This document shows positions 11,780-30,328 of a stretch of 64,000 nucleotides of DNA, piece by piece (positions within the stretch are counted from its first letter, which is position 1; each line of letters begins with the position of its first letter). Position numbers and translations under genes: made by a program. The notes under the pieces are model-generated. The model searched no databases. It had not been told where the DNA came from and was given only the letters and a program-made list of their open reading frames with translations. Source of the DNA: an uncultured Bacteroidales bacterium. GTDB taxonomy: Bacteria > Bacteroidota > Bacteroidia > Bacteroidales > Bacteroidaceae. The stretch is taken from assembly GCA_902779165.1 (NCBI GenBank), contig CACZAN010000008.1, positions 62,001 through 126,000 on the forward strand, in the 5' to 3' direction.

Positions 11780-11807
11780 CACCCGAAAATCTAATGAATA
11801 GAACTTT

Positions 11808-13943
11808 ATGAAGCGATTTGTCCTACACCTTATTTTAATATGCGCGTGCGTGTGCGTAGGGGCTCAAAATCCCGTGAGCACTTCTGTGAAGAAACAAGCG
11901 GTCAGCGGTCATGATGATCTCATCGACCTCGTCTTCAGCTTCACGATCCAGCCGGGCTGGCACGTCTATGGACCGGACAACGGTGACGACGGCCCCACGA
12001 AGATGACCTTCAACACGGAACAGTTAGAGGGCTGTCAGCTGGAGGGTGGCCTGCGCCTCTCCCCTGCCCCAAAACGCGTGATGGACAATGTCTTCGGCTG
12101 CGAAGTCACCTACTTCGAGAATAAAGGTTCGGCCACGCAGCGTCTGCGTCTGAAGGGTGGCGCATGGAAGGCTGTAGGCTATCTGGAATACGGCACCTGC
12201 AACGATGAGAGCTGCATGCCGCCAATGCCGGTGGAGTTCAGCTTTGAGGGGACTCTCCAAAACTCTGGCTCCGCAGGCCCACCCTCCGCAGTTTCTCCAG
12301 CCGGAACAGGTAATAGTTCCGGCTTCGAACCACCTGTGAGGGAGGGAACTGTCACCGATGAAGGGCGTGCGCAAGGGAAACAAGATGGAGAATCATCCAC
12401 GGACGGGGCCGAAACGGACACCACCTCGCAAATTCAAACCGCTCACTCCCTCACTGGGAGGGAAGGGGGTGGGTCTTTATGGACTCCCGTCATCGATGAA
12501 CTTCACGCCCTCGATGCAGCATCCGACACCCAATCGCGCTCGTTGTGGGGCATCTTCTTCCTCGGCATCGTCGGCGGACTGATAGCGCTGCTCACCCCCT
12601 GTGTATGGCCGATTATTCCTATGACCGTAAGCTTCTTCCTCAAACGCTCGAAGGACGATAAGCGCAAGGGCATCACCGATGCCATCCTCTATGGACTCAG
12701 TATCGTGGTCATCTATGTAGGATTGGGTCTGCTGGTGACGCTGATATGGGGCCCTTCTTCCCTCAACGCGCTGAGTACCAACGCCATCTTCAACCTTTTC
12801 CTCTTTGCCCTGCTGGTTTTCTTCGCCGCCTCGTTCCTCGGTGGATTCGAGATCACGCTGCCTTCCTCATGGAGCACAAAGATGGACGAGAAAGCCAGCT
12901 CCACCACGGGTCTGCTCTCGATCTTCTTCATGGCGTTGACCCTGGTTCTTGTCAGCTTTAGCTGCACAGGACCAATCATCGGTCTGCTGCTCGTGGATAT
13001 GGTCACCAGCGGCAGCATCATCGCCCCGACGGTTGGCATGTTCGGCTTTGCACTGGCGCTGGCGGCTCCCTTCACGCTCTTCGCAATGTTCCCCACGTGG
13101 CTAAAGTCCGCGCCGAAGAGCGGTAACTGGATGAATGTCATCAAAGTCGTACTCGGTCTAATTGAACTGGCGTTTGCGCTGAAGTTCCTGAGCGTAGCCG
13201 ACTTAGCTTATGGCTGGCGGCTCCTCGACCGCGAGACGTTCCTCTGCCTATGGATACTCATCTTTACGTTGATGGGCTTTTATCTCCTCGGCTGGATCAG
13301 GTTGCCCCACGATGAGGACGAATACGACGATGACGGTAATGTCATAGCCCGTCCAAAGATTGGGGTAGTGCGTTTCCTATCAGCACTTTGCGTTCTCGCC
13401 TTCGCACTGTATATGGTACCTGGACTGTGGGGGGCTCCGTGCAAGGCCGTGAGTGCATTTGCTCCTCCGATGTGGACGCAGGACTTCAATCTGAACCAGA
13501 ACACTGTGGAGGCTACCTACACAGATTATGAAGAAGGTATGGCTGCCGCCCGTCGGCTGGGCAAGCCCGTCATGCTGGACTTCACAGGCTTCGGGTGTGT
13601 GAACTGTCGTAAGATGGAGGCTGCCGTGTGGCCTGATGCCCGAGTGCGCCAGCTGATGACCGAAGACTATGTGCTCGTCAGCCTCTATGTCGACGACAAA
13701 ACTCCCCTACCCGCTCCCGTTGAAGTCATTGAGGCTGATGGTACTACACGCAAGCTGCGCACCGTTGGCGACCGCTGGAGCTACCTGCAACGCACCAAGT
13801 TCGGCGCACAGACTCAACCCTTCTACGTCCTTGTGGATCACGAAGCCCATCCTCTCGCAGGAAGCTTCAGCTACAAGGAAGACATTCCCGGCTTCGTCAG
13901 CTGGCTGGAAGGGGGGCTGAAACGCTTCGAGGAAACAAAATAG
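11808..13943 (+). CDS. dsbD: Thiol:disulfide interchange protein DsbD
   Basis: 711 residues. It passes electrons from cytoplasmic thioredoxin through the inner membrane to periplasmic thiols. A signal peptide (to about residue 20) precedes an N-terminal beta domain (VFSFTIQPGWHVYGPD). The membrane core runs from about residue 245 to 560 with TPCVWPIIPM (Cys near 265) and FSCTGPIIG as the paired-cysteine helices. The C-terminal thioredoxin domain carries CVNC at about 597-600. Between the beta domain and the membrane part lies an unusual Gly/Ser/Thr-rich linker (residues ~150-224) that coincides with a palindromic repeat also found in nspC. Monocistronic, with its own promoter. Confidence 0.92.
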   Translation: MKRFVLHLILICACVCVGAQNPVSTSVKKQAVSGHDDLIDLVFSFTIQPGWHVYGPDNGDDGPTKMTFNTEQLEGCQLEGGLRLSPAPKRVMDNVFGCEVTYFENKGSATQRLRLKGGAWKAVGYLEYGTCNDESCMPPMPVEFSFEGTLQNSGSAGPPSAVSPAGTGNSSGFEPPVREGTVTDEGRAQGKQDGESSTDGAETDTTSQIQTAHSLTGREGGGSLWTPVIDELHALDAASDTQSRSLWGIFFLGIVGGLIALLTPCVWPIIPMTVSFFLKRSKDDKRKGITDAILYGLSIVVIYVGLGLLVTLIWGPSSLNALSTNAIFNLFLFALLVFFAASFLGGFEITLPSSWSTKMDEKASSTTGLLSIFFMALTLVLVSFSCTGPIIGLLLVDMVTSGSIIAPTVGMFGFALALAAPFTLFAMFPTWLKSAPKSGNWMNVIKVVLGLIELAFALKFLSVADLAYGWRLLDRETFLCLWILIFTLMGFYLLGWIRLPHDEDEYDDDGNVIARPKIGVVRFLSALCVLAFALYMVPGLWGAPCKAVSAFAPPMWTQDFNLNQNTVEATYTDYEEGMAAARRLGKPVMLDFTGFGCVNCRKMEAAVWPDARVRQLMTEDYVLVSLYVDDKTPLPAPVEVIEADGTTRKLRTVGDRWSYLQRTKFGAQTQPFYVLVDHEAHPLAGSFSYKEDIPGFVSWLEGGLKRFEETK
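12276..12478 (+). repeat. In-frame palindromic repeat element inside dsbD
   Basis: The right end (CTCCCTCACTGGGAGGGA, then GGTGGGTCTTTAT) matches the right end of the second nspC insert almost base for base, but is read in a different frame (GGG-TCT-TTA versus GTG-GGT-CTT-TAT). The left part contains CACCTGTGAGGGAGGGAA and an extra hairpin AGCCGGAAC/GTTCCGGCT. The limits are approximate. Confidence 0.7.
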
Positions 13944-27548: not shown

Positions 27549-28528
27549 ATACTGCTAATAACGACGAACTCCGTGCAGCACACAGTTTTGTTGTATGCCT
27601 GCTCGCACTTCTTATCTCCAACTCTTCCCTCCTCGCCCAAACCCAGCTGAAGTACTCCAACTTCGACCAATGGATTACTCGCGAAATCAAGGAGAGCAAG
27701 ATTATCGGTGGCAATACCCACACCCTCTATGAGATTGGTCCCACTGGCACCTGGGATGGAAAGAAGCCTTACGTGAATCAAGGAGGCTCGCCCTGGGCAA
27801 ACAGTAATATCATGGCGAAGGTTGCAGGCGTCGTGAAGACAAATGTCACCGTCTATCCTGAGAAGCGAGGCAACGGACAATGCTGCAAACTCGTCAGTCA
27901 CATTGTGGGAGTCAAAGTGCTGGGACTCGTGAACATTCACGTCCTCGCCGCCGGCTCCATCTACTTGGGCAAGATGATAGAACCCATCACCAGCAGCTCT
28001 AATCCTTACGCCAAACTCGACTACGGCATCCCCTTCACCGACAAGCCCAAAGCCATTCAGTTCGACTACAAAGTCAAGCTCTCTGACAAGCCCGACCGTA
28101 TCCGCCAAACAGGCTTCAGTCGTGTTAAGACCATTCCAGGGAAGGATTTGCCTGGAATGAACTTCATCCTTCAGCGCCGCTGGGAAGATGCAGATGGCAA
28201 CATCTTTGCCCACCGAATTGGCACCAATGTGCATCGTTTCAACAAAGATACCGACTGGGTGAACGGAGCTAAATTCGAAATCCATTACGGCGACATCAGC
28301 AAAGAATCCTTCTTCCAACCATACATGGACCTTATCAAGGATGGAGACAACTTGAAATTTGCCGTGAACAGCAAGGGTAAGATCGTGCCAATCAAGGAAA
28401 TTGGATGGGGAACGCCTGACGAGAAGCCCACCCATCTCTGCCTTCAGTTCGTAAGCAGTTTTGGAACTGCTTACGTCGGAGCTGTAGGCACCACCCTGTG
28501 GCTCGATAACGTAAAACTCGTCTATTGA
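27545..28528 (+). CDS. Secreted PCMD-domain protein
   Basis: 327 residues. A signal-like hydrophobic stretch (SFVVCLLALLISNSSLLAQ) is followed by a beta-rich domain that I recognise as PCMD (putative carbohydrate metabolism domain, found in Bacteroidetes). It has INIHVLAAGSIYLGKM, KAIQFDYKVKLS in the middle and the closing TLWLDNVKLVY. It resembles a carbohydrate-binding jelly roll; no catalytic residues are apparent. It overlaps the lysozyme gene by 4 bp and precedes nspC by 31 bp, so the three are probably co-transcribed. Function unknown; export is likely. Confidence 0.75.
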   Translation: MNTANNDELRAAHSFVVCLLALLISNSSLLAQTQLKYSNFDQWITREIKESKIIGGNTHTLYEIGPTGTWDGKKPYVNQGGSPWANSNIMAKVAGVVKTNVTVYPEKRGNGQCCKLVSHIVGVKVLGLVNIHVLAAGSIYLGKMIEPITSSSNPYAKLDYGIPFTDKPKAIQFDYKVKLSDKPDRIRQTGFSRVKTIPGKDLPGMNFILQRRWEDADGNIFAHRIGTNVHRFNKDTDWVNGAKFEIHYGDISKESFFQPYMDLIKDGDNLKFAVNSKGKIVPIKEIGWGTPDEKPTHLCLQFVSSFGTAYVGAVGTTLWLDNVKLVY

Positions 28529-28533
28529 AGATC

Positions 28534-28585
28534 ATGAACACGCCCTATTATCTCTTCGAATGAACACGCCCTATTATCTCCTCGA
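28534..28585 (+). repeat. 26-bp tandem duplication of the nspC start
   Basis: 28534-28559 and 28560-28585 are identical except for one base. The first copy begins with an ATG and encodes MNTPYYLFE before a TGA that overlaps the ATG of nspC (ATGA), creating a 9-codon upstream cistron. Confidence 0.85.
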
Positions 28586-29846
28586 AGAAAGCCTACTGCG
28601 CCGCAACCTCGCTCTTATCAAGGATGTGGCTGATCGTTCAGGTGCCGAGATTATTCTCGCCTTCAAGGCGTTTGCCCTTTGGAAGACCTTCCCCATTTTC
28701 CGCGAGTATATTCAGCACACTACGGCCTCCAGCCCCGACGAAGCAAGACTGGCTCTTGAAGAGTTTGGTTCCCCGGCCCACACTTACTCTCCCGCTTACA
28801 CCGAGCGTGATTTCCCCACCATTCTCCGCTGCTCTTCGCACATCACCTTCAACTCCCTCTCTCAATACCAAAGGTTCAGACTCACCCCCAACTCCTCCCG
28901 TCAGGGAGGGGAGTCCTTCGGCTTGAAGGATAGTCCTGACGCGCTGCAAAGTTCTTCCATGAAGGGAAGGGAATGGGGCGGGTCTTTCGGACTGCGCGTC
29001 AACCCCGAATACAGCGAGATCGAAACAGAACTCTACAATCCCTGCGCCCCAGGATCCCGTTTTGGTGTATTGTCCAGTGACCTGCCTTCGCCCTCCGACT
29101 TCCCCGAGGACATCGAAGGCTTCCATATCCACTGTCACTGCGAGAGCAGCGCCGAAGCTTTCGCGCGCACGCTCGTACATATTATAAATAAGTTCTCTCC
29201 ATGGTTCCCGAAGCTCAAGTGGATAAACTTTGGCGGTGGCCATCTGATGACCCGCAAGGACTACAATGTTGAACTCCTGATTCAAACCCTGCGTGACTTC
29301 CACACCCGCTGGCCGCACCTTCAGATGATACTGGAACCAGGCAGCGCTTTTGCCTGGCAGACCGGCACTCTAGTGGCAAGTGTTGTTGACATCGTGGAAA
29401 ACCACGGAATCCGAACAGCAATCCTCGACGTCAGTTTCACCTGTCACATGCCCGACTGCCTTGAGATGCCGTATTATCCTGAGGTGAAGTTGAGAACAAC
29501 CAGCTCCACCACCGCCCCCTCTTATAAAGGAGGGGAATCCTCCGGTTTACAAAAGGATCTCATCGCACAGCTCGTCCCTTCCTCACGGGAGGGGTCGGAG
29601 GTGGGTCTTTATCGCCTCGGCGGCAACTCCTGCCTCAGTGGTGATTTCATGGGCACCTGGCTTTTTCCCCGCCCCCTCGCTGTCGGCGATGAGATTATCT
29701 TCGAGGATATGATACACTACACTACGGTCAAGACCACCACCTTCAACGGCGTTCATCACCCCAGTCTTGTCCTCAAGCACCTCGACGGCAGCCTCGAAGT
29801 ACTGCGCGAGTACACCTACGAAGACTATCGTGACCGCATGGACTAG
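28560..29846 (+). CDS. nspC: Carboxynorspermidine/carboxyspermidine decarboxylase
   Basis: 428 residues against roughly 380 for the family. This PLP enzyme, of the alanine-racemase-fold decarboxylases, makes spermidine or norspermidine in the alternative polyamine pathway. Motifs: ILAFKAFALW (PLP lysine), HCHCESSAEAF, LKWINFGGGHL, LEPGSAFAW, MPDCLEMPYYPE and LGGNSCLSGD. Two in-frame insertions (bases ~28878-28987 and ~29507-29610) interrupt conserved sequence: one between NSLSQYQRF and GLRVNPEYSE, the other between EMPYYPEVK and YRLGGNSCL. Both are copies of a palindrome-ended DNA repeat. Otherwise all family motifs are intact, so the enzyme may still be active. The partner carboxyspermidine dehydrogenase gene is not in the window. 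Confidence 0.92.
   Translation: MNTPYYLLEESLLRRNLALIKDVADRSGAEIILAFKAFALWKTFPIFREYIQHTTASSPDEARLALEEFGSPAHTYSPAYTERDFPTILRCSSHITFNSLSQYQRFRLTPNSSRQGGESFGLKDSPDALQSSSMKGREWGGSFGLRVNPEYSEIETELYNPCAPGSRFGVLSSDLPSPSDFPEDIEGFHIHCHCESSAEAFARTLVHIINKFSPWFPKLKWINFGGGHLMTRKDYNVELLIQTLRDFHTRWPHLQMILEPGSAFAWQTGTLVASVVDIVENHGIRTAILDVSFTCHMPDCLEMPYYPEVKLRTTSSTTAPSYKGGESSGLQKDLIAQLVPSSREGSEVGLYRLGGNSCLSGDFMGTWLFPRPLAVGDEIIFEDMIHYTTVKTTTFNGVHHPSLVLKHLDGSLEVLREYTYEDYRDRMD
28878..28987 (+). repeat. In-frame palindrome-ended element, nspC copy 1
   Basis: The left end AGACTCACCCCCAACTCCTC and the inverse of the right end (AAAGACCCGCCCCATTCCC) are imperfect terminal inverted repeats, each containing its own small palindrome. 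The centre (GGGGAGTCCTTCGGCTTGAA) is similar to that of copy 2. Confidence 0.75.
29507..29610 (+). repeat. In-frame palindrome-ended element, nspC copy 2
   Basis: The left end CCACCACCGCCCCCTC and the inverse of the right end (CCACCTCCGACCCCTC) differ at two of 16 positions. The centre GGGGAATCCTCCGGTTTA parallels copy 1. It ends GGTGGGTCTTTAT, as in dsbD. Confidence 0.75.
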
Positions 29847-29930
29847 TACGGCTATCCTTAGCAAATCCTCCCTCTTTCATCTACTTTTTGAAGAAAAATC
29901 ATCTTTTTCTTGAAAAAAAACTCCAAAAAG

Positions 29931-29962
29931 CTTGGTCAGTTCACAGAAAAGACGTACCTTTG
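29931..29962 (+). promoter_or_regulatory. Promoter of the tRNA cluster: CTTG-N20-TACCTTTG
   Basis: The -33-like CTTG is at 29931-29934 and the perfect -7 TACCTTTG at 29955-29962. The first tRNA starts 54 nt downstream. Confidence 0.7.
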
Positions 29963-30016
29963 CACCCGCAATCAGGAAGATTGCTCAAGTTCATTGACAT
30001 TCTGAACAAGTTTCAT

Positions 30017-30089
<73 letters not shown>

Positions 30090-30132
30090 CACGGAACACA
30101 AGAGAGTGAAAGACCAAGCGGTCTCTACTTCA

Positions 30133-30213
30133 GCCCAGGTGGCGGAATGGTAGACGCGCTCGTTTCAGGTGCGAGTGTTGAGAGACGTGCAGGTTCGAGT
30201 CCTGTTCTGGGCA
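30133..30213 (+). tRNA. tRNA-Leu (CAG)
   Basis: 81-nt class II tRNA starting GCCCAGGTGGCGGAATGG. The anticodon stem CTCGT/GCGAG encloses TTCAGGT (anticodon CAG), a long variable arm follows, the T-arm is CAGGTTCGAGTCCTG and the acceptor end is TCTGGGC-A. CCA is not encoded. Confidence 0.93.
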
Positions 30214-30244
30214 CAGAGAAGCTGAATCTTTCGACCTCAAACAT

Positions 30245-30328
30245 GGAGAGGTGGCGGAATTGGTAGACGCGCTACTTTGAGGGGGTAGTGTCGATTATGA
30301 CGTGGGAGTTCGAGTCTCCTCCTCTTCA
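30245..30328 (+). tRNA. tRNA-Leu (GAG)
   Basis: 84-nt class II tRNA. The acceptor GGAGAGG pairs with CCTCTTC (one G-U), the anticodon loop is TTGAGGG (anticodon GAG), the variable arm is TGTCGATTATGACG, and the T-arm is GGGAGTTCGAGTCTCCT. Confidence 0.93.

Follow-up and report, generated by a model that had tools for sequence, protein, structure and literature searches.

In-frame copies of a dispersed palindromic repeat family in protein genes of an uncultured Bacteroidales bacterium, with two probable decayed copies in nspC

The gene nspC lies near the middle of the window (the whole 64,000 nt stretch of DNA that was analyzed), and its product matches the TIGR01047 profile with 457 bits against a cut-off of 409 (Table 1). 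The motifs AFKAFA, HCHCE, EPGSA and CHMPDCLEMPY, which we take to hold catalytic residues, are found in this protein, and the columns that are invariant in 41 aligned sequences (that of the window and 40 others) include K36, H191, E259, D299 and C300. Because these residues and family motifs are retained, the gene looks functional. The nearest NspC records come from uncultured Prevotellaceae, Bacteroidaceae and Bacteroidales assemblies, many of them from rumen.

When aligned, the protein exceeds the TIGR01047 family model by about 47 residues. The best solved homologue aligns to it in three blocks (query residues 3-107, 140-310 and 350-427), and the gaps between the blocks correspond to two inserted segments. 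The original prediction, made from the DNA letters, had described two extra segments of about 35 residues. Each is indeed about 36 residues long, but the segments largely replace an existing loop rather than being purely added. Since they stand mostly in place of this loop, the net gain is smaller than the segment length: site 1 gains about 19-28 residues and site 2 about 20. The fold of a predicted NspC model matches carboxynorspermidine and carboxyspermidine decarboxylases, with both inserts at low confidence (pLDDT 48-50 and 54-63); the model is taken as indicative, because the conserved stretch 291-310 also has low confidence.

Table 1. Positions of nspC, the repeat copies and two further host genes (window coordinates unless a locus handle is given)
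Feature	Position	Strand	Remarks
nspC (carboxynorspermidine decarboxylase)	28560..29846	+	Host of both inserts; TIGR01047 profile match, 428 residues
Element copy 1, type A	28878..28985	+	108 bp; NspC residues about 107-142
Copy 1 ends			Left AGACTCACCCCCAACTCCTCCCGTCAGGGAGGGGAG, near consensus; right GGGGCGGGTCT, decayed
Copy 1 left hairpin	28892..28911	+	CTCCTCCC-GTCA-GGGAGGGG
Element copy 2, type A	29502..29608	+	107 bp; NspC residues about 315-350
Copy 2 ends			Left decayed; right GGGAGGGGTCGGAGGTGGGTCT, near consensus
Copy 2 left hairpin	29518..29535	+	CCTCTTATAAAGGAGGGG
Copy 2 right hairpin	29577..29594	+	CCTTCCTCACGGGAGGGG
Third copy in the window	12275..12478	+	In frame in DsbD-like gene (ORF 11802-13940)
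UvrA-family gene with two elements	L124:2079-5048	+	
UvrA-family gene with two elements	L129:1947-4469	-	

At the DNA level the two nspC segments carry matching ends in the same order and orientation. Between its two 16-bp ends, copy 2 shows exactly two differences, and neither copy introduces a stop codon into the gene frame, both as originally described; four of the five remaining frames of each copy are stopped. The claim that every end is itself palindromic holds for the left hairpin of copy 1, which contains CCTCCC-GTCA-GGGAGG, but the right hairpin of this copy is badly decayed. The string GGGGARTCCTYCGGYTTR is common to both copies and has matches without mismatch at these two places only in the genome. 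It is not the centre of the element, as had been proposed, but is located immediately interior to the left hairpin; other copies contain it with one or two changes. RNA folding of the two nspC copies gives z scores of -2.05 and -3.01, versus -6.71 for a young copy elsewhere in the genome, and neither nspC copy passes an ungapped inverted-repeat test (p≤0.01) by itself. Thus, taken by themselves, the nspC copies are palindromic to a moderate degree only. Decayed, G/C-rich and individually failing the test, they could be read as two unrelated low-complexity expansions that happen to lie in nspC loops.

A genome-wide search for further copies, named beforehand as the test of the element idea, answers this objection. 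The end pattern AGACCCACCCCCNNCCCCTCCC, with at most three mismatches, occurs at 80 sites in the 3.59-Mb genome (38 on one strand and 42 on the other), versus one site for the control, in which the pattern was read backwards. When copy 1 itself was used as query, 46 places were matched at E≤10, mostly through the left-end motif. The 80 ends merge into 67 clusters, 13 of which are converging pairs of 102-284 bp with the common borders AGACCC...GGGTCT, and many unrelated genes are among the sites. Because the ends of the nspC copies match these 80 genomic ends, and because both copies agree in their ends, order and orientation, we hold coincidence to be refuted and regard it as the least credible of all the explanations weighed here. 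The nspC segments are instead very probably decayed copies of a dispersed palindromic family.

The consensus end of this family is AGACCCACCCCC-RA-CCCCTCCC-gtNA-GGGAGGGG. One unit spans about 45 bp, consisting of AGACCCACCCCC followed by the hairpin CCCCTCCC-gtNA-GGGAGGGG, and occurs singly or as two converging units. Three related forms exist among the ends: type A (AGACCCACCCCCRACCCCTCCCGTCAGGGAGGGGAG), type B (AGACCCACCCCCCGCCCTCCCTGTTAGGGAGGGAGCGGTYACTTT) and type C (AAGCCCACCCCCGGCCCCTCCCCGGGGAGGGGAG). Type B is mostly intergenic with an A/T-rich middle, and is also found in a DHH gene. The base that precedes the element tip is A in 48 of 76 end entries and C in 19. In the DsbD-like gene of the window, the copy sits between DsbD_N and the DsbD transmembrane domain; its right end is near consensus, and its left end is so decayed that the start is uncertain.

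The ends are widespread among relatives. Within the genus they were detected in 67 of the 81 genomes searched (0-150 per genome, with at most three control matches). A survey of the family recovered ends in 78 of 201 genomes and 14 of 30 genera, where single matches may be chance because controls reach four. Two arrangements in the genome that carries the window are recorded here in their own right. The element at C33:33441-33593 (L161) spans a junction of genes that we presume, from reading the sequence by eye, to be hisC and hisB, and its ends reach into both frames. At C17:121345-121628 (L150), an element with a tandem 78-bp internal unit lies in frame in a 901-aa frame that has no Pfam match.

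Many of the clusters lie inside genes. An intragenic cluster was counted when it lay in a frame of at least 200 codons, no closer than 30 codons to either end, and the product matched a curated family. By this definition 25 of the 67 clusters lie within open frames of 22 recognized genes. Thirty-five clusters are located between genes or near gene ends, outside long frames; the others left out are C47:620 (in FeoB, lacking the hairpin) and six whose long frames have no match in Pfam. Two clusters each are carried by uvrA, by a gene for a second UvrA-family protein (841 aa; best solved match UvrA 7sh1, E 6e-190) and by nspC. One cluster each is carried by the genes for a pyridine nucleotide-disulphide oxidoreductase, an NAD-dependent epimerase, a PD40 protein, the DsbD-like protein of the window, a MutS2-type protein, two MFS transporters, a sodium:solute symporter, a TonB receptor, an EamA transporter, a cation ATPase, a DHH phosphoesterase, a BT4734-like protein and a dienelactone hydrolase, and by truA, argC, a CarA-CarB frame, an iorA-like gene and dusB. 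A further copy beyond the 25, found with copy 1 as query, resides in pyrG.

The intragenic copies use both orientations and all three frames. Read in different frames, one end yields the peptides RPTPNPSRQGG, TDPPPTPPVREG and AHPQPLPSEGG, and the other yields PSREGSGVGL, PSLTGGVGGGS and PLPDGRGRGWV; the encoded peptides are rich in Pro, Arg, Gly and Ser. Because the 25 clusters were selected for open frames by construction of the count, survival according to frame is something that we infer. As a separate observation, the element at C5:52574-52736 seems to code for a portion of the lipoprotein-like signal peptide, MKLSDISWRSLLPSFTGGVWGWVFCFLLTSC, of an 876-aa frame (L131:2-2629, minus strand), and this repeat may have supplied an export signal.

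Orthologous sites in other species were compared for six genes with intragenic copies and for nspC. In local DNA alignments, the pyrG insert is absent from the same point in seven of eight relatives and the argC insert in nine of 11, and the one and two relatives that remain, respectively, have different sequence there. No complete palindromic element is present in the epimerase gene of seven relatives or in dusB of eight, where exact empty sites cannot be fixed because the relatives' loops vary with non-repeat sequence. In truA, by contrast with these cases, an element-derived stretch is recognizable and in frame, without stops, in six of nine relatives, and its residue identity is 61-71% versus 80-85% in the flanks. 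Copies of differing ages therefore coexist. In one relative, G060, the nspC match contains two stops.

These comparisons bear on whether the segments are present in the finished proteins at all. Skipped or spliced elements often fold very stably, and a young copy of this family does so as RNA (-76 kcal/mol, z -6.71; the argC copy has z -4.75). If the segments were removed in an intron-like, intein-like or ribosome-skipped manner before the protein is finished, their reading frame would be irrelevant. However, the old truA insert has stayed open over six relatives while drifting, as would not be required of a removed segment, which argues against removal from either RNA or protein. Likewise, the frame in which a copy is read varies among genes, each nspC copy is open in the gene frame and stopped in most others, and an Rfam scan of positions 28300-30300 detected only two tRNAs downstream of nspC, with no intron match over the gene. 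The openness of the 25 counted copies carries limited weight in this respect, since it was partly selected by the count. We consider removal very unlikely.

Another possibility is that the segments are selected functional parts, for instance interaction peptides or hairpins in the mRNA that adjust translation, rather than tolerated parasites. Their presence in core enzymes and the long retention of the truA copy would fit such a role. Nevertheless, in relatives the same loops lack an insert or are filled by other sequence, the palindromes of the nspC copies are partly lost, and the truA insert diverges more quickly than the sequence on either side of it. Selected function thus appears improbable, if somewhat less so than removal. 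The explanation that we favor with good confidence, judging from sequence comparison, is that these are non-autonomous palindromic mobile repeats that are translated and tolerated in permissive loops; the elements would be mobile, their peptides would be retained in the mature proteins, and the copies there would be neutral.

In such a mechanism, two converging units would allow a single strand to form a terminal stem and additional pairs within it. Copies would be moved in trans by some enzyme and inserted across the genome without target duplication, A or C being mildly favored ahead of the tip. An intragenic copy would survive if it keeps the frame, brings no stop into the frame of the gene and encodes a peptide that lies in a permissive loop. 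Surviving copies would then be translated together with the rest of the protein and would drift.

No transposase that would mobilize the element was found among the candidates considered. The element resembles the MITEs of prokaryotes in being short, apparently non-autonomous, dispersed and bounded by terminal inverted repeats, but differs in showing no target-site duplication. The duplication expected of a MITE of a DDE insertion sequence is not supported, a 3-bp border match being found in one of 13 pairs (0.32 expected). Among the loci fetched around the ends, in which some nearby frames were identified, no insertion sequence with type A ends was noticed. A Y1_Tnp/RAYT partner was considered and rejected. 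The number of elements does not correlate with strong Y1_Tnp genes over 81 genomes (Spearman -0.03, p 0.78), and only two of 20 element-rich genomes have a strong Y1_Tnp gene. The one strong Y1 transposase gene in the genome of the window (L175, C5:81182-81523) is flanked not by type A ends but by a different palindrome, GTAGCCAGCC...GGCTGG, and may be a RAYT that has a REP family of its own.

A further alternative is that the family is a member of the GTAG/CGTC-tagged REP superfamilies, to which Rickettsia RPE-4 and RPE-6 are assigned, and is moved by RAYT or similar transposases. According to the available text of PMC3733652, CGTC-type REPs have a stem of 8-9 bp and a loop of 4-5 nt, form converging dimers with variable spacers and are reported in Bacteroidetes. 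The same source places REPs inside tRNA pseudouridine synthase genes and, with two insertions each, inside both O. terrae uvrA genes, and describes REP inserts at about the same site of recB in two Xanthomonas species. The architecture is shared here: short hairpins, converging dimers and intragenic copies, including those in pseudouridine synthase and uvrA genes and the double insertions in two UvrA-family genes (PMC3733652, as far as its text is available). What distinguishes the element is that it has no link to RAYT and no tag at the hairpin base, and that an extra conserved arm, AGACCCACCCCC, lies outside the hairpin and is able to pair with its partner. In 76 end entries, CGTC is found outside the hairpin in none and at the loop in 15, and GTAG is outside in 10; an unpaired tag at the hairpin end is not a feature of the family. 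Together with the missing association with Y1_Tnp, these counts make membership unlikely, although of the alternatives considered it is the least so.

The loops that hold the elements have also received other repeats. In L177 (uncultured Prevotellaceae), the point in NspC loop 1 where copy 1 lies is occupied by a complete type B element read in another frame, so that ADPPLTLPCREG is encoded versus RLTPNSSRQGG in the NspC of the window. Loop 2 of L177 and of G043 (L070) holds a further palindromic type (AAGCCCCTCTCTAACTCCCCCCGT in L177), that of L205, L207 and L249 holds another (AGCCTCCCCCCTTCCCCCTCC in L205), and the NspC genes of L252 and L197 carry other inverted repeats. Type-F ends number 7 versus 3 for the control in the L205 genome, where support is weak, 10 versus 2 in the L207 genome and 14 versus 1 in the L249 genome. 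The inverted-repeat test (p≤0.01) was applied to 107 distinct NspC loop sets and was passed at site 1 by one of 105 loops (L177) and at site 2 by six of 95 (L070, L177, L197, L205, L209 and L252), about two passes being expected by chance over both sites together. Among 106 distinct NspC proteins, gains of at least eight residues over a lean reference comprise 37 entries in loop 1 and 33 in loop 2 (some sequences are counted twice), four elsewhere inside the protein and two at the N-terminus. Most NspC length gains are ordinary loop variation, not elements.

Similar re-use is visible in other genes, where only regions near elements were compared, and is for this reason best supported in NspC. 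In carA, additional sequence occupies the site of the element in six of nine relatives, and in four it looks repetitive or palindromic. Dispersal of the carA loop sequence was checked for one relative, G015, in which an ATGTTCA heptamer repeat occurs at 400 sites (e.g. C22:2463 and C22:7363) versus 0-8 in five other genomes, with runs in the carA and pyrG loops. The octamer GTTGACAA, which is dispersed in tandem and inverted arrangements, was counted at 201 sites in G018, at 89 in G019 and at 94 in the genome of the window (13 for the control there), whereas G041 and G055 have none. It is present in dusB in G018 and in argC in G019.

The simplest reading of these patterns is that the loops may tolerate almost any in-frame insert, and no targeting would be needed. 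We tentatively go one step further, with a proposal that we judge slightly more apt to be wrong than right: the exposed loops of core enzymes would be a standing niche, refilled independently and in any open frame by whichever repeat family is active in a species, be it one of several palindromic types or a tandem repeat of 7 or 8 bp. What is visible of such a niche would be the two element types at one point of NspC loop 1 and the repeats in carA, pyrG, argC and dusB.

The original prediction likened the nspC segments to Rickettsia palindromic elements (RPEs), a likeness that is good as an analogy. RPEs and their Wolbachia counterparts are described, in the portions of PMC2229807 and PMC10969869 that are accessible, as 105-146 bp units with terminal inverted repeats and a long stem-loop, which occur between genes and also, in frame, within conserved protein genes. 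The element resembles them in size, terminal inverted repeats, stem-loop and in-frame copies, the likeness drawn here being one of architecture. Insertion in frame in conserved protein genes, a feature of RPEs, is seen in the 25 clusters of 22 genes. The family also behaves as dispersed palindromic repeats do, with copies that have common borders (80 ends versus one for the control) and are present or absent between species. It differs from RPEs in its phylum, in its G/C-rich ends and in its use of all three frames and both orientations.

The phenomenon of in-frame palindromic inserts is already known from other organisms. It is less exclusive than the original prediction implied, because intragenic REPs are reported from several species of different phyla in the available text of PMC3733652. 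No announcement for Prevotella or Bacteroidaceae, and no account of the type A family, appears among the literature matches listed, which mostly lack subscription papers and preprints. The accessible parts of PMC4755523, on the dispersed repeat PINSR amplified in Prevotella intermedia and P. nigrescens, and of PMC5771137, on repeats of Porphyromonas gingivalis, describe no in-frame palindromic inserts for the P. intermedia or P. gingivalis repeats. In contrast to the element reported here, PINSR lacks terminal inverted repeats and most likely coding sequence (PMC4755523, same parts).

Palindromes that code for protein are familiar mainly from Rickettsia and, as REPs, from some other genomes. 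The double copies in two UvrA-family genes parallel those of the unrelated O. terrae, as given in the available text of PMC3733652; this is striking and calls for an explanation. The gene models and protein families of these uncultured bacteria contain repeat-derived loops, which should serve as a warning. In such a species-rich group of gut and rumen bacteria, with 25 clusters of mixed ages in recognized genes of a single genome and with relatives whose sites are empty, the question of how repeats become protein would be directly testable. If exposed loops do constitute a standing niche, then new protein segments would arise repeatedly at fixed points.
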